The notes under the pieces: generated by a model
The model's database searches: none
Told to the model about the DNA's origin: nothing
Seen by the model: the letters and a program-made list of their open reading frames with translations, nothing else
Program-made: the position numbers and the translations under genes
Assembly (NCBI RefSeq): GCF_900100335.1
Contig: NZ_FNFE01000004.1
Span: 124,001 to 188,000 of the forward strand
From: Natronorubrum texcoconense
Lineage (GTDB): Archaea; Halobacteriota; Halobacteria; Halobacteriales; Natrialbaceae
Length of the DNA: 64,000 bases
Direction of reading: 5' to 3'
Shown here: piece after piece, positions 6,931 through 33,632 of the stretch
Layout: each line of letters begins with the position of its first letter
Position numbering within the stretch: position 1 is the stretch's first letter

Positions 6931-7010
6931 TACGATCCGCTGTAACTGTGTACCGGAGCGACCGCTGTACGGGTCGCGGTCGCTCCGGAAATGACTTACA
7001 GCTGACCGTA
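6931..7010. repeat. 80-bp inverted-repeat element, copy A
   Basis: Two 33-bp arms (6931-6963 and 6978-7010) are imperfect reverse complements around a 14-bp centre; the inner 11 bp CCGGAGCGACC pair perfectly. A near-identical element lies at 54358-54437, again just downstream of a plus-strand gene. It encodes nothing. It looks like a small non-autonomous palindromic element or a mobile terminator hairpin. Confidence 0.8.
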
Positions 7011-7021
7011 TCACACGAGAT

Positions 7022-7627
7022 ATGGGACTGCTGGACGGACTCCGCGCCGTACTCGGCCTGCGCGCCGAGACGGACGCCAGACGCGACGCCGACCCCGACG
7101 ACCTCTTCGGGATGAGCACCGCCTACCTCACGATGGAGGCCGACCTCGGCTACGACTCGCTCGACGTCGGTGCGCTTTGTTTCTCCGGCGTCGACTCGAG
7201 TAGCTTTCGCGACGCCGTCGACGAGGTCGAAGCGATCTTGGAGGCCGGCCGCGAGGACACCGGCACCGACTTCGCGGTCACTAGCGACGACCACGGCTAC
7301 CACTGGGTCGTCCTCGAGGACTCGAACCCCGAGGACCTGATCACGAGCATGCACTTCGCCGCGGACACGTTTATCGAACACGGCTACGGCTCGCGGCTGC
7401 TGGCGGCGGTGTTCGCCTACGAGAACCTCGGCGGAACGGCCTACTGGATCTACTCCTTCCGCCGCGGTGCGTTCTACCCCTTCGCGCCTCGCTCCGGCCG
7501 GGAGCGCGACTCGAGTGCGGAGTTCAAACTCGAGGCGAGCCTGGACGGCGAACTCGAGATCGAACGCGAAAAGGAGTACTGGTACCCGCTGTGGCCGAGT
7601 TCGAGCGGTACGCATCCCTGGGAGTGA
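7022..7627 (+). CDS. pspAB: PspA-associated protein PspAB
   Basis: 201 residues, soluble, beginning MGLLDGLRAVLGLRAETDA with the characteristic DDLFGMSTAYLTME. This N-terminus and the gene order htpX-pspAB match the haloarchaeal PspAB family, named for its association with phage-shock (PspA) systems that guard membrane integrity. No catalytic motif is visible. The biochemical role is unknown; the link with HtpX suggests envelope stress. Confidence 0.8.
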   Translation: MGLLDGLRAVLGLRAETDARRDADPDDLFGMSTAYLTMEADLGYDSLDVGALCFSGVDSSSFRDAVDEVEAILEAGREDTGTDFAVTSDDHGYHWVVLEDSNPEDLITSMHFAADTFIEHGYGSRLLAAVFAYENLGGTAYWIYSFRRGAFYPFAPRSGRERDSSAEFKLEASLDGELEIEREKEYWYPLWPSSSGTHPWE

Positions 7628-7915
7628 GTCGAACGGGGGTGTTCGCGTTTCTGAGCGAGTCGGTGGCACCCCGGTACCAAATACTGTTGGCACCACCGAT
7701 ATTATGGTCCCGTTCGTACGTCGAAGTACGGCAGGAACCTACCGCCACATCATCACCAACTGCGCCATACACCAGTTGTTGCCACCTTTTCCTGCCGCCC
7801 TTTCACGACCGCCCAGCCGCAGCTCGCTCACCGCGACGACCGACAGTCGACCGGACCGGGCGCTCGTCGATCGGTGTCGCATCCATTATGTCGGCCCGCT
7901 GGGTAGGCCCTGCCA

Positions 7916-9109
7916 GTGAGCCACTGGAACCAGTTCAAGGGAGACCCGCGACACGCGGGGGTTCGACGCGACCTCGAGGGACCGACTCGCGTGACGGAGG
8001 GCTGGACGGCCGACCTCGTCGGCCCCGTCGGATCGCCGGTCCTCGACCGCGACACCGTCTTCGTCGGGACGAGTCACGGGAACTGTTACGCGCTCGAGCG
8101 CGAGCACGGCCGCGAACGCTGGCGGTTCGAGACGACCGGTGCGACCGACGCGGCACCGGTCGTCACCCACGAGTTGCTGTATCTCGGTGCCGGCGACGTC
8201 GTCTACGCGCTCGACCCCGCGACCGGTGAGCAGATCTGGACGTCGGAACTGCCGGACGTGACCGAGTCCTCGCTGGCGCTTGCTGACGGCGTCCTGTACG
8301 CCGGACACGGCACGGGCGTCTCGGCGCTCGAGGCCGAAACTGGCGAACTCGTCTGGAGCCACGAGACGGACGCGGCGGTCGTCGGCGCGCCGGCGGTCGA
8401 CAGCGCGCGGGACCGGACCGGTGGGCAGGGTTGGGGTCAGCAGTCGGTCGACGAAGCCGACCTGGATCTGTTGTCGCTCGAGGACGCACAAATGGCGGAC
8501 GACGACGCACAACCTCACGACCAGGATCGCGTCTACGTCGGGACTGACGACGAGACGGTGCTCGCGCTCGAGGCCGAGACGGGCGAGGAGCTCTGGGATG
8601 CCCCGACCGACGGCGTCATCGTCGACGGACCGACGGTCGTCGACGAGCGGGTGTACGTCGCCGACGGGAGCGGCACGCTCGTCGCGTTGCACGCCGACAG
8701 CGGCCAGTCGTGGTTCACCTACCAGATTCAGGAGTCGTTTACCTCCACGCCGACGGTCCTCCCCGAGCTCGATACGACGTTCGTCGGCGCGTCGGACGGC
8801 TACCTCCACGTCACCGATACGACGTTCGGCCGGCGCAAACTCCGCGGCTGGCTGTTCGCGAAGAAGGGGGTTGCACTCGACGGCGAGGTCGCCTCGAGTC
8901 CCGTCGTCGCCGGCGACATCTGCTGCGTCGGCGACTCCACCGGCTCGCTGTACGGCATCGATCTCTCCGACGACTGCGACCTCTGCTGGCACTTCGGTCT
9001 CGAGGGACCGATCACGGCGACGCCCGCACTCGCCGAGAACCGGCTGTTCGTCGGCGGCGGCGATCGGCTCTACTGCCTCGAGTGGGATCCCGACGAACGG
9101 CGACCGTGA
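7916..9109 (+). CDS. Cytoplasmic PQQ-like beta-propeller repeat protein
   Basis: 397 residues from a GTG at 7916 (VSHWNQFKGDPRHAG). The start is supported by a TATA-like attatg about 30 bp upstream. At least seven blades carry the repeat pattern ALEAETGE.LVW, VYVGTDDETV and LFVGGGDRLY. A charged insertion (about residues 165-205, DLDLLSLEDAQMADDDAQ) separates blades 3 and 4. Unlike the other propeller in this window there is no signal peptide or anchor, so it should be cytoplasmic. The substrate is not predictable. Confidence 0.83.
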   Translation: MSHWNQFKGDPRHAGVRRDLEGPTRVTEGWTADLVGPVGSPVLDRDTVFVGTSHGNCYALEREHGRERWRFETTGATDAAPVVTHELLYLGAGDVVYALDPATGEQIWTSELPDVTESSLALADGVLYAGHGTGVSALEAETGELVWSHETDAAVVGAPAVDSARDRTGGQGWGQQSVDEADLDLLSLEDAQMADDDAQPHDQDRVYVGTDDETVLALEAETGEELWDAPTDGVIVDGPTVVDERVYVADGSGTLVALHADSGQSWFTYQIQESFTSTPTVLPELDTTFVGASDGYLHVTDTTFGRRKLRGWLFAKKGVALDGEVASSPVVAGDICCVGDSTGSLYGIDLSDDCDLCWHFGLEGPITATPALAENRLFVGGGDRLYCLEWDPDERRP

Positions 9110-9294
9110 TCGTCACTGGAGGCTCGATCGTTCGGATCACTCGACAGTCTCCTCGCGTGTCTCGGTCTCGTTCGATTCGCCTTTTCGGATAAATCTGGTG
9201 TCGTGATGCCTTTTCATCCCGACGCCGCCCGGCACTTTCACTTTCACTCTCCTGTTAACGAGGGTTTATGAGGTGTCCGGCACAAGCACGGAGT

Positions 9295-10326
9295 ATGCCA
9301 ACAGCAGATCTCGAGACGCTCCCCGGCGTTGGACCGGCAACTGCAGAGAAGCTCAACGAATCTGGATTCGAATCCTTCCAGAGTCTCGCCGTCGCCTCAC
9401 CCTCCGAACTCTCGAACACGGCCGACGTCGGCGAGTCCACGGCCGCGGACATCGTTCGCGCCGCGCGTGACGCAGCCGACATCGGTGGCTTCGAGACCGG
9501 GACTACGGTCCTGGAACGACGGAACGAAATCGGCAAATTGAGCTGGCACATCGACGAGGTCGACGACCTGCTCGGTGGCGGCATCGAGACCCAGTCGATC
9601 ACCGAAGTCTACGGCGAGTTCGGCTCCGGGAAATCGCAGGTCACTCACCAGATGGCCGTCAACGTCCAGCTCCCCAAGGAGGTCGGCGGGCTCCACGGCT
9701 CCTGTATCTTCGTGGACAGCGAGGACACGTTCCGACCCGAGCGGATCGACGACATGGTTCGCGGGCTTCCGGACGAGGCCATCAACGCGGCGCTCGAGGA
9801 TCGAGAGATCGAGGGCTCGGCCGACGACAAAGACGCTGTCGACGAACTCATCGACGACATCCTCGACAAGATCCACGTCGCGAAGGCGTTCAACTCCAAC
9901 CACCAGATGCTGCTGGCCGAGAAGGCCAAGGAGCTGGCCAGCGAGCACGAGGACTCGGAGTACCCCGTCCGCCTGCTCGCGGTCGACTCCCTGACCGCCC
10001 ACTTCCGCGCGGAGTACGTCGGCCGTGGCCAGCTCGCGGACCGACAGCAGAAGCTCAACAAGCACCTCCACGACCTCGATAAGGTCGGAAACCTCTACAA
10101 CGCCGCCGTGATCGTCACGAACCAGGTCGCCTCGAACCCCGACTCGTTCTTCGGCGACCCGACCCAGCCGATCGGTGGCAACATCCTCGGCCACAAGTCC
10201 ACGTTCCGGATCTACCTTCGCAAGTCGAAAGGCGACAAGCGGATCGTCAAACTGGTCGACGCGCCGAACCTCGCCGACGGCGAAAGTGTCATGCGCGTCC
10301 AGGGCGACGGGCTGAAGCCGGAGTAA
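9295..10326 (+). CDS. radA: DNA repair and recombination protein RadA (archaeal Rad51/RecA)
   Basis: 343 residues from [13 protein letters not shown]. An upstream in-frame ATG at 9268 would add nine residues unlike the family. Residues 1-65 form the helix-hairpin-helix DNA-binding domain ([12 protein letters not shown]). Walker A is GEFGSGKSQ at 107-115, and Walker B lies within [15 protein letters not shown]. The L2-region sequence [20 protein letters not shown] is typical of RadA. It forms ATP-dependent filaments that perform strand exchange in homologous recombination. It stands alone, with no operon partner. Confidence 0.97.
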
Positions 10327-10358
10327 GCGACGTCCCTTCGGCGTCGACGGCGTAGTTT

Positions 10359-10634
10359 TTACGCGACTGGTTCTACCGAGACCGCCACTGCCGCTTCGGC
10401 AGTACTGTCGACAGTGATCTCGTATCCCACGTAAACGAAGCTTACGCGACCCGTACGCGGCTCTCCTCCGCGTGTCGGTTCGAACAACGCGTCCAACGCT
10501 TCCGGGTCGATCACGTTCCACAGCGGCGGCAGCGTCAGTGGATCACAGTCCTCGGCCTCGCTCACGGCGTCGACGATCGTTTCGGTAACGGAGGGGGGTG
10601 CGGGTCGGTCTTCGGACAGTGTGTGGACAATCAT
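10359..10634 (-). CDS. HalOD1 domain protein (haloarchaeal output domain)
   Basis: 91 residues from the ATG at 10634. I prefer this start because a TATA-like tttactata lies about 25 bp upstream on the minus strand. The pattern LTLPPLWNVIDPEALDALF followed by RVSFVYVGYEITVD is the HalOD1 signature, a small alpha/beta domain found alone or at the end of haloarchaeal signalling proteins. Its partner and output are unknown. It lies convergent to radA. Confidence 0.8.
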   Translation of the reverse strand: MIVHTLSEDRPAPPSVTETIVDAVSEAEDCDPLTLPPLWNVIDPEALDALFEPTRGGEPRTGRVSFVYVGYEITVDSTAEAAVAVSVEPVA

Positions 10635-10876
10635 CGAAATCCGTACGCCACGATATAGTAAATAGCTATCTGTGATCGGTGCTTTGCTGGAGAATTCGAA
10701 ATACTGACAGGCCACGGACGCTTCTGGAGGCCATCAGTTATCGGTCACTGGCTCTCGTCGTTGCGAGGCGAATCAGGTCGAACGGGCGAGACGAAGATGC
10801 GACGCTATCACGTGAGAACTGGACGAATGCCGCACTCGAATTATTCGGCCGAACCCCGACTCTTGGGACCCCGGAC

Positions 10877-30346: not shown

Positions 30347-32032
30347 GTGAATACGACGGAGCAGTACAAGCAGAACAAGCACCCGCTCGACGTGATCGAC
30401 GACGTCTACGACTACGCCGACGACGAACTCTCGTTTGAGGAGATCGAAGAGCGCGCCGGCGGCGGCGAGTGGGAGCGCCTGAAGTGGGCCGGCATGTACG
30501 CCCAGAAACAGGAGGGCTACTTCATGATCCGGACCAAGGTGCCGGGCGGGAAACTCACGCCCGAACAGGCCGAGGTCATCGGCGAAGTGACCGACGACCT
30601 CGCCGTCGCACCCGAAGCGTACGGCGGTGCGGAGCAGAACGAACTCTGGGGCGACGCCTACCTCGACATTACGACCCGACAGGACATCCAGAAACACTGG
30701 ATCCGCGTCGAGGACGTTCCGGAGATGTGGAACCGCTACGACGAGGTCGGCCTGACGACGGTCCAGGGCTGTGGTGATTCCGCCCGGAACGTGCTCGGCT
30801 GTCCGGCGGCCGGTATCAGCGACCACGAGTGTTTCAACGCCCAGCCGGTCATCGAAGCCGTCTCGGACTTCTTTACGAACAACCGCGAGTACGCCAACCT
30901 CCCGCGGAAGTTCAAGATGACCATCACGGGCTGTGCCCACGACTGCGCGCAGTCCCAGATCAACGATATCGGCCTCGTTCCTGCGAAGAAGGAGATCGAG
31001 GGCGAGCACTACTACGGCTTCCACGCTCGCGTCGGCGGCGGCCTCTCCGACGGTCCGCGGATGGGGTCGGAGCTCGACGTCTTCATCCCGCCGGAGGACG
31101 CCGTGGAGTTCTGTCGCGCCGTCGCCCAGACGTTCAAGGAGATCGGCGACCGTAACAACCGCGGCGTCTGCCGCATGCGCTATCTCGTCGAACAGTTGGG
31201 TCCCGCGAAGTTCGAGGAAGCCATCCGCAACCGAACGGCCATCGACTTCCCGACGGGCGGCGAGAACCTGACCGTCGGCTACCAGGGCGACCACGTCGGC
31301 GTCCACGACCAGAAGCAGGACGGCCTGCAGTACGTCGGTTTCAACGTCGTCGCCGGCCGGATGGGCGGCGACGAGTTCGCCGAGGCCGCCCGTGCAGCCG
31401 AGACGTACGGAACCGAGGACGCCTCCGTTCGCCTCGCGACCGACCAGAACTTCCTCATCACGCACATCCCTGAGGAGAACGTCGATGACCTCCTCGCGGA
31501 GCCGTTCGCCGAGGACTATCAGCCCGACCCCGGCGCGTTCTCCCGCGGCGCCGTCGGCTGTACGGGCAGCGAGTTCTGTAACTACGCGATCATCGAGACG
31601 AAAAAGCGGACCAAGCGCTGGGCCCGCGAACTCGACGAGCGCATCGATGTGCCCAACGATATCGAGGCTATTCGGATGCACATGTCCGGCTGTTCTGCCT
31701 CCTGTGCCCAGCCACAGATCGCGGACATCGGCTTCCGCGGCGAGACCGTCAAGATCGATGAAGACGGCGAGTCCGACATCGTCGAAGGGATGGACTTCGG
31801 TCTCGGCGGCTCGCTCGGCGCGGACAACGAGTTCTTAGATTGGATCGAGAACGCCGTCCCCGCCGATTCGGTGATTCCGGCGCTCGAGCAGCTGTTCGAC
31901 GCCTACAACGACGACCGCCACGACGGCGAGCAGTTCTACGAGTGGTGTCGCCGTGTCGATAACGGGCAGCTCCGCACGATCATGCAAGGAGCTGAGGCCC
32001 CGGTTGCTGGGGGTGTTGCTCATGGGGACTAA
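30347..32032 (+). CDS. Siroheme/4Fe-4S nitrite or sulfite reductase
   Basis: 561 residues from the GTG at 30347 (NTTEQYKQNKHPLDV). An earlier in-frame GTG at 30338 lies closer to the hairpin. The [4Fe-4S]-siroheme cysteines are C405 and C411 (CTGSEFC, spacing 5) and C449 and C453 (CSASC, spacing 3), which is the C-x5-C...C-x3-C signature of nitrite/sulfite reductases. An N-terminal half-repeat also has TGCAHDC. Whether nitrite or sulfite is the substrate cannot be decided from these motifs. It overlaps the next gene (FrhB-type) by 11 bp, indicating that it receives electrons from F420H2 through that subunit. Confidence 0.9.
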   Translation: MNTTEQYKQNKHPLDVIDDVYDYADDELSFEEIEERAGGGEWERLKWAGMYAQKQEGYFMIRTKVPGGKLTPEQAEVIGEVTDDLAVAPEAYGGAEQNELWGDAYLDITTRQDIQKHWIRVEDVPEMWNRYDEVGLTTVQGCGDSARNVLGCPAAGISDHECFNAQPVIEAVSDFFTNNREYANLPRKFKMTITGCAHDCAQSQINDIGLVPAKKEIEGEHYYGFHARVGGGLSDGPRMGSELDVFIPPEDAVEFCRAVAQTFKEIGDRNNRGVCRMRYLVEQLGPAKFEEAIRNRTAIDFPTGGENLTVGYQGDHVGVHDQKQDGLQYVGFNVVAGRMGGDEFAEAARAAETYGTEDASVRLATDQNFLITHIPEENVDDLLAEPFAEDYQPDPGAFSRGAVGCTGSEFCNYAIIETKKRTKRWARELDERIDVPNDIEAIRMHMSGCSASCAQPQIADIGFRGETVKIDEDGESDIVEGMDFGLGGSLGADNEFLDWIENAVPADSVIPALEQLFDAYNDDRHDGEQFYEWCRRVDNGQLRTIMQGAEAPVAGGVAHGD

Positions 32033-33632
32033 CGGCGAGGACGAACGTACGTTCCCGACCGTTCCCGAGTCGCAGACGGACGACGACGAGGCTGTGATGT
32101 TCCCCGAGACCGGCAGCGCTGCGCCGCGGTCTCGAGAGGGAACGGACCACGCTCGAGAAGGTACGGTCCAGACCGATGCGGACGACGCCAGCGGCGACAG
32201 CTGCTCGCCGAACACCTGCTCCTGCGGCGAGAAGACTGCGAACACATCGCCACAGACGGAGAATAAGCGCGTCGCCACGGACGGAGCCGGAGTCGCCAAC
32301 GTCGACGAGATGGGCGAACTCGGCGACCTCGAGTTCACCGAACCCGCCGAGGGCGTCAGTCAGGACGTCGACAACGGCGCGCCGGACGTTCGCGTCGGCG
32401 TTCCGGAGGGTGCCGACCTCGAGACGCCGGAGTACTCGATCCGCGCAGAGATGAACGACATCGAGACGCCGGACGAGAAGACCTGGTTCATGGAACTGGA
32501 CGAGGCCGTCATCGACGAGGGTCGCTGTATCCAGTGTGGGACCTGCGTTGCGGCCTGTCCCTCCGATTCGATCGGCGTCGGCGAGGACGACCTCCCTAAG
32601 CTGGTCAAGATGTGTACCGGTTGTTCGCTCTGTTGGGACTTCTGTCCCCGCGGCGGGATGCGCTACGAGCGCCAGTGGAAGATCACCGGCGGCGACGACA
32701 ACGTCAAAGGTGCCGGCGATCCGATTACGGAGTTCTCCGCGAAGGTCGAGGACGACTGGACCGACGGCGCACAGGACGGCGGCGTCGTCACCGGCGTCCT
32801 CGCAACGCTGCTCGAGGAAGGCGAGATCGACGGCGCGCTCATCGCGACCGAGAGCGAGGAGGAGGCCTGGAAGGCCGAGAGTTTCCTCGCGACCACGGAA
32901 GAAGAGCTCATCGAGAACGCCGGCACGGTCTACAACCAGACGCTCGCGCTGGGCAACCTCGACCTGAAACAGTGGGAGCACAAGCTCCCCGACAAGGGTT
33001 GGGACGAGCTCTCGCTCGCCCTCGTGGGGACGCCGTGTGAGATCGAGGGCATCCGCGCCCTCCAGGACTTCGACTGGGACTATCAGGCCCAGAACGAGGG
33101 CATTCGGGCCGTCGACTACACCATCTCGCTGATGTGCACGAAGAACTTCAACTACTACAGCCTCATGGGCGAGCAGTTGGAGGAGAAACGCGACATCTCG
33201 CCCGACGAAATCGGGAAGATGGACGTCCTCAACGGCAAGATGATGGTTTACGACCACGACGGCAACATGATCGTCGAGGAAGACGTCGAGAACTTCCACG
33301 ACGCCGCGCTCAAGGGCTGTGACGAGTGTGCCGACTTCACCGGTTTCTGTTCGGACATCACCGTCGGCTCCGTCGGCTCTTCCGACGAGTACTCGAGCGT
33401 CATCATCCGCACCGAGCAGGGGATGCAGGCGTGGGACCTCACCGAGCCGAAACTCGACTACCACGACTTAGAGGACAAGTCGGCGGTCGGCAAGCTCCAG
33501 GGCTGGGATAAAAAGAAGGCCTTCGAGAGCTTAGAGCGCCCGTTCGACCCCGACGCGCCGCGTTTTATCGACTACACCGACCACGCCGAGAACTACGGCA
33601 CGGCGCTGAACCCGCACGACCAGGCTCACTGA
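32022..33632 (+). CDS. FrhB/FpoF-type coenzyme F420 dehydrogenase subunit with two 4Fe-4S clusters
   Basis: 536 residues. Residues 1-140 are an acidic, disordered extension with CSPNTCSC (C61, C66, C68). Two ferredoxin clusters follow: CIQCGTCVAACP (C169, 172, 175, 179) and CTGCSLCWDFCP (C198, 201, 204, 208). The rest is the FrhB N- and C-terminal pair: GGVVTGVLATLLEEGEIDGA, SLALVGTPCEIEGIRAL, SLMCTKNFNYYSL and CDECADFTGFCSDITVGSVG. Such subunits bind FAD and take electrons from F420H2. The overlap with the siroheme reductase recalls the two halves of methanogen Fsr, here as separate genes. Confidence 0.88.
   Translation: MGTNGEDERTFPTVPESQTDDDEAVMFPETGSAAPRSREGTDHAREGTVQTDADDASGDSCSPNTCSCGEKTANTSPQTENKRVATDGAGVANVDEMGELGDLEFTEPAEGVSQDVDNGAPDVRVGVPEGADLETPEYSIRAEMNDIETPDEKTWFMELDEAVIDEGRCIQCGTCVAACPSDSIGVGEDDLPKLVKMCTGCSLCWDFCPRGGMRYERQWKITGGDDNVKGAGDPITEFSAKVEDDWTDGAQDGGVVTGVLATLLEEGEIDGALIATESEEEAWKAESFLATTEEELIENAGTVYNQTLALGNLDLKQWEHKLPDKGWDELSLALVGTPCEIEGIRALQDFDWDYQAQNEGIRAVDYTISLMCTKNFNYYSLMGEQLEEKRDISPDEIGKMDVLNGKMMVYDHDGNMIVEEDVENFHDAALKGCDECADFTGFCSDITVGSVGSSDEYSSVIIRTEQGMQAWDLTEPKLDYHDLEDKSAVGKLQGWDKKKAFESLERPFDPDAPRFIDYTDHAENYGTALNPHDQAH

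Follow-up and report, generated by a model that had tools for sequence, protein, structure and literature searches.

The closest described system to the locus studied here is aFsr, the putative F420H2-dependent assimilatory sulfite reductase of haloarchaea. It was named by Susanti and Mukhopadhyay in 2012 (PMC3448663), and the name recurs in 2022 (PMC9295563). aFsr consists of an aSir-type subunit α and a subunit β homologous to the N-terminal half of Fsr, encoded by linked genes; in the parts of the 2012 paper available to us, no difference from the gene pair described here was found, and its tree legend includes Haloterrigena turkmenica. Because aFsr was already proposed and named there, the pair in our window—the whole stretch of 64,000 nucleotides that was analyzed—is a rediscovery of a published hypothesis and is already known as aFsr. 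Added here are pairing statistics, a test of substrate residues, and the F420 partner of a sister clade, clade B. In the literature searched, no biochemical or genetic test of aFsr was found. According to a 2021 review, only one F420-dependent reaction is reported for halophiles, and the importance of the coenzyme in haloarchaeal biology is enigmatic (PMC8305020). If the reading given below is true, an F420H2-linked sulfite reductase would give F420 a concrete haloarchaeal role, and aFsr would help settle the route to sulfide in the haloarchaeal genomes carrying the pair.

Fsr of methanogens (PDB 7np8 and 7npa) features an F420H2-oxidase half homologous to β (E 3.5e-39), the same kind of ligand set for cluster 1, and F420H2-to-sulfite chemistry, which is expected for aFsr. 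However, Fsr is a single fused polypeptide, whereas aFsr is split over two genes; the C-terminal half of Fsr is Dsr-like with an inserted ferredoxin domain (PMC10229431), whereas α is a two-repeat aSir without this domain; and the second ferredoxin motif is full in β only. NirA/SirA of M. tuberculosis and the plant ferredoxin-nitrite reductases resemble α in fold and architecture (TM 0.66–0.69) and in the siroheme-cluster cysteines but differ from aFsr in lacking an F420 subunit and in their presumed use of ferredoxin. In addition, tobacco NiR features an Asn in place of a Lys of α, and the haloarchaeal nas-operon NirA carries Asn at the position of CysI K217 and has a gene that adjoins nasA and a nitrate transporter. 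FpoF/FqoF (PMC9295563) and FGltS(I)-α share with β two CX2CX2CX3CP motifs followed by an FrhB core. Their role is in membrane F420H2 dehydrogenases or in a putative glutamate synthase, whereas β has a siroheme reductase as partner and an N-terminal extension of approximately 155 residues.

The window is haloarchaeal, and the nearest named relative of its β belongs to Natronorubrum halalkaliphilum (94% identity). Both reading frames are intact:

30347–32032, plus strand: aFsr-α, predicted assimilatory-type siroheme/[4Fe-4S] sulfite reductase, 561 aa
32022–33632, plus strand: aFsr-β, predicted F420H2-oxidase subunit (FrhB/FpoF-type), 536 aa
32022–32032, plus strand: overlap of the α and β reading frames, 11 bp

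This agrees in coordinates and domains with the original prediction of a siroheme reductase gene overlapping an FrhB-type gene with two ferredoxin clusters; the identical overlap of 11 nucleotides occurs in 10 of 51 orthologous pairs. The start codon of α is most likely GTG 30347, since N2, the residue after the start, is invariant among 37 orthologs, and β starts with ATG 32022. The genes around the pair are housekeeping and thiamine genes, as judged by inspection. No sulfur operon surrounds the pair in the window, the known sulfur genes not being in an operon with it, and neither nasA nor a nitrate transporter stands beside α when the window neighbors are compared with the nas locus of the same genome.

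The subunit α matches PF01077 (E 5e-53) and PF03460 (E 6e-30); the domain search yields NIR_SIR and NIR_SIR_ferr twice each and no ferredoxin domain within α. In the PDB it comes closest to plant nitrite reductase (E 2e-84), followed by NirA of M. tuberculosis (E 1e-73), and Fsr is matched at E 4e-8. A predicted structure of α with a pLDDT of 69, which served for the overall fold only, was matched by Foldseek to NiR/NirA over the full length with the TM scores given above and to Fsr partially, at TM 0.30. Among NCBIfam models, ferredoxin-nitrite reductase comes nearest, with a score below the cut-off of the model. By sequence and predicted fold, α is a two-repeat reductase of the assimilatory type (aSir/NirA). 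The description of the pair as a separate-gene Fsr is hence only half right: β is homologous to the N-terminal half of Fsr, but α is of the assimilatory type and not an unfused C-terminal half; a split Fsr was rejected for α on the comparison of fold and E value with NiR. The ligands of the siroheme cluster, CX5C...CX3C, are C405, C411, C449, and C453, and are invariant. The N-terminal half of α holds the extra cysteines C142, C152, C196, and C200 (window 30770–30946), which are invariant in 37 clade A orthologs, that is, orthologs of the window pair; the nas-operon NirA and some members of clade B lack all or part of the four. From the sequence, a second cluster or a Tyr-Cys bond is possible for the four residues; a second 4Fe-4S site in α is not claimed because some clade B members have partly or wholly lost these cysteines.

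The subunit β matches FrhB_FdhB_C (E 1e-33) and FrhB_FdhB_N (E 2e-19) and carries two ferredoxin motifs in the domain search; its best PDB match, spanning residues 160–484, is M. jannaschii Fsr. The FrhB core blocks QDGGVVT, VGTPC, GCDECADF, and VGSVGSSDEYSSVIIRTE are conserved in the alignment with Fsr. Along the gene, the following features can be appreciated:

32202–32225, plus strand: CSPNTCSC motif, β residues 61–68 (Cys 61, 66, and 68)
32283–32486, plus strand: conserved extension specific to clade A, β residues ~88–155, with many invariant positions
32526–32648, plus strand: two ferredoxin motifs CX2CX2CX3CP, C169/172/175/179 and C198/201/204/208 (definition from PMC9295563)
33033–33329, plus strand: ligands of the flavin-proximal cluster, PC339...C372...C433xxC436, corresponding to cluster 1 of Fsr (PCX40CX54CX2C, PMC10229431)

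All twelve cluster cysteines are invariant among 48 orthologs; the predicted cofactors of β are FAD and three [4Fe-4S] clusters. The second ferredoxin motif is complete and of the FpoF type: its second Cys is present, as in FpoF/FqoF, and is missing in Fsr (PMC9295563). A tree with long branches unites the β subunits of clades A and B (100/100) and separates them from 20 other members of the FrhB family, drawn from methanogen and related sequences and including the one Fsr sampled. The N terminus of β had been described as a 140-residue acidic extension with CSPNTCSC. The extension exists and the motif is real; of 54 named β subunits of clade A, 46 have a similar Cys cluster of variable sequence. 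However, the extension is made up of two different regions, since only residues ~1–85 are variable and residues ~88–155 hold many invariant positions, and it is only slightly more acidic than the remainder of β (24% versus 21% D+E). The conserved region is a candidate docking segment for α. An AlphaFold2 model of β from a shallow alignment was left unused because of its pLDDT of 46.

Orthologs of α with at least 68% identity occur in 51 of 194 Halobacteria genomes—about a quarter of those sampled—and each of the 51 is immediately followed by β on the same strand, which rules out a chance adjacency; these counts depend on the 194-genome sample and on the E-value cut-offs separating the clades. 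The predicted partnership of an F420H2-oxidase subunit with a siroheme reductase, in print since 2012 (PMC3448663), is well supported by this pairing. In a survey of named genomes, α adjoins β in 53 of 54 loci. Neighbor surveys, for which genes were called by a simple coding-bias script, gave the commonest other neighbors of aFsr (ftsY-like and eIF6-like, named by inspection) in 12 of 21 clade A loci and the commonest other neighbor of the clade B pair in seven of 16 loci examined. α and β travel as a unit while their neighbors change. At locus L120 (6301–9386), a β copy of 70% identity adjoins a TcuA-like FAD dehydrogenase and not a sulfite reductase, a gene order that suggests recruitment of the F420 subunit by a different partner. 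Locus L188 (3953–5368) of Halobacteriales archaeon YIM A00010 holds an orphan second β with no reductase gene beside it, and a shortened clade B β remnant without a reductase partner at L121 (6453–7331) is probably decaying.

The aFsr pair probably forms a tight F420H2:sulfite oxidoreductase for sulfide assimilation and cysteine synthesis. In this enzyme, β would oxidize F420H2 at the FAD and split the electrons singly through its three [4Fe-4S] clusters, from which they would pass directly to the siroheme-[4Fe-4S] center of α; since α lacks a ferredoxin domain of its own, β could supply the electron relay. Sulfite would be reduced by α to sulfide with six electrons from three F420H2, for cysteine synthesis, and F420H2 would be regenerated from NADPH by the F420:NADP oxidoreductase of the genome. 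The sulfite could stem from thiosulfate via rhodanese or from sulfate. We infer an α–β complex, F420H2 as its donor, the direct electron path, and the physiological role—the dependence on F420 from homology and gene pairing only.

Alternatively, β could be a separate F420H2:ferredoxin oxidoreductase that reduces the [2Fe-2S] ferredoxin pool, on which α would draw as other haloarchaeal NirA/SiR proteins presumably do. We regard this arrangement as unlikely. It would suit the sequence and fold of α, which are closest to those of ferredoxin-dependent NiR and NirA, and the few β copies with no adjoining α (L120 and L188); moreover, the nas-operon reductase and the lone reductases of a third clade, clade C, occur without β and so need another donor. 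However, the strict one-to-one pairing in two clades, the overlapping frames, and the clade-specific conserved extension of β all favor a dedicated complex.

As to what such a dedicated complex reduces, the substrate residues R62, R147, K188, and K190 of α are R, R, K, K as in E. coli CysI. The fourth substrate position, K217 in E. coli CysI, is Lys in α and Asn in both tobacco NiR and the nas-operon NirA of the same genome; the Lys is found in clades A, B, and C alike. This position is one that we take to discriminate sulfite (Lys) from nitrite (Asn) reductases—a tendency and not a law, as nitrite is often reduced by sulfite reductases too. The structure search also matched a PDB entry of the N226K mutant of tobacco NiR. 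The nas operon of the same genome (L068, 5053–11141) features nasA, a narK-like transporter, and the NirA with the nitrite-type Asn. Since α has the sulfite-type R, R, K, K and the separate nas-operon NirA the nitrite-type Asn, sulfite is the likelier natural substrate by sequence, and the reduction of nitrite may be a side reaction; of the two substrates first suggested, nitrite or sulfite, the former is therefore the less likely. It is quite improbable that the complex serves nitrogen assimilation, with nitrite reduction by F420H2 as its main activity: the chemistry is common to siroheme reductases, the nearest NCBIfam model of α, although below cut-off, is named for nitrite, and nitrite supports growth of Natrinema sp. 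J7-2 as sole nitrogen source (PMC3402447), but the Lys at the discriminating position throughout the three clades, the dedicated NirA adjoining nasA and a narK-like gene, and the sulfurtransferase fused to the reductase in sister clade B speak against a nitrite specialist.

That β has switched from F420H2 to another electron donor, such as a thiol or an NADPH-linked flavoprotein, is very improbable: motifs alone cannot show F420 binding and non-methanogenic archaea, halophiles among them, reportedly contain little F420 (PMC8305020), but the FrhB core blocks are conserved relative to Fsr, and F420 genes and NpdG are present.

The F420:NADP oxidoreductase NpdG of the same genome is matched above the cut-off (E 1e-76), and cofH-like matches occur in 194 of 194 genomes, below the curated cut-off. 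Concerning sulfate, the search for a PAPS reductase in the same genome gave PF01507 matches only (E 4e-13 and 2e-5); sulfate can serve Natrinema sp. J7-2 as its only source of sulfur (PMC3402447). Clade C, a lone sulfite-type reductase without β, occurs in 129 of 194 genomes: in 21 of 51 with aFsr versus 108 of 143 without (Fisher p 2e-5, uncorrected for phylogeny). Within the family of the window alone, this difference is not significant (p 0.18). Clade C is absent from 30 of the 51 aFsr genomes, among them that of Natrinema gari, versus 35 of the 143 others, a pattern consistent with a takeover of sulfite assimilation by aFsr in these 30; aFsr is not the sole reductase in some genomes, because 21 of the 51 also have clade C.

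In the sister clade B, α has a tandem rhodanese fused to its reductase part and is approximately 800 aa long and 44–54% identical, and each fusion is followed by its own copy of β (~420 aa, 39–47% identity). The fusion with a downstream β was found in 20 of 20 tabulated cases and, by inspection, at L119, giving 21 loci; among them are L069–L084 and L119, for example L069 at 6989–10654. A 2024 survey counts, in the part accessible to us, 19 of 529 halobacterial NirA proteins as rhodanese-fused (PMC11237513). An F420 partner of the rhodanese–reductase fusion was not found reported in the literature searched, including the accessible part of that survey, and this partner of clade B is new here. 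The fusion points, by its sequence, to an assimilation from thiosulfate via sulfite to sulfide. A tentative reading, possible but short of likely, is that clade B is an F420-driven thiosulfate-to-sulfide enzyme of two polypeptides, in which the fused rhodanese makes sulfite, the siroheme site reduces it, and its own β supplies the electrons.

The window holds two divergent double-rhodanese genes at 41864–43808, 8–10 kb 3′ of aFsr, the second of which resembles the clade B domain:

43011–43808, plus strand: free-standing double-rhodanese gene, ~9 kb downstream of β, 55% identical to the rhodanese part of clade B

Its product is a possible pathway partner of aFsr outside the enzyme. A rhodanese gene lies near aFsr (within 16 kb, at about 8–13 kb) in 21 of 51 aFsr genomes, all of one family; because matches to the rhodanese also occur widely without aFsr—in 151 of 194 genomes in all—the linkage is suggestive only. 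In Natrinema sp. J7-2, the sulfite reductase NJ7G_0304 and a thiosulfate sulfurtransferase are ten gene numbers apart (PMC3402447), a layout similar to that in the window.
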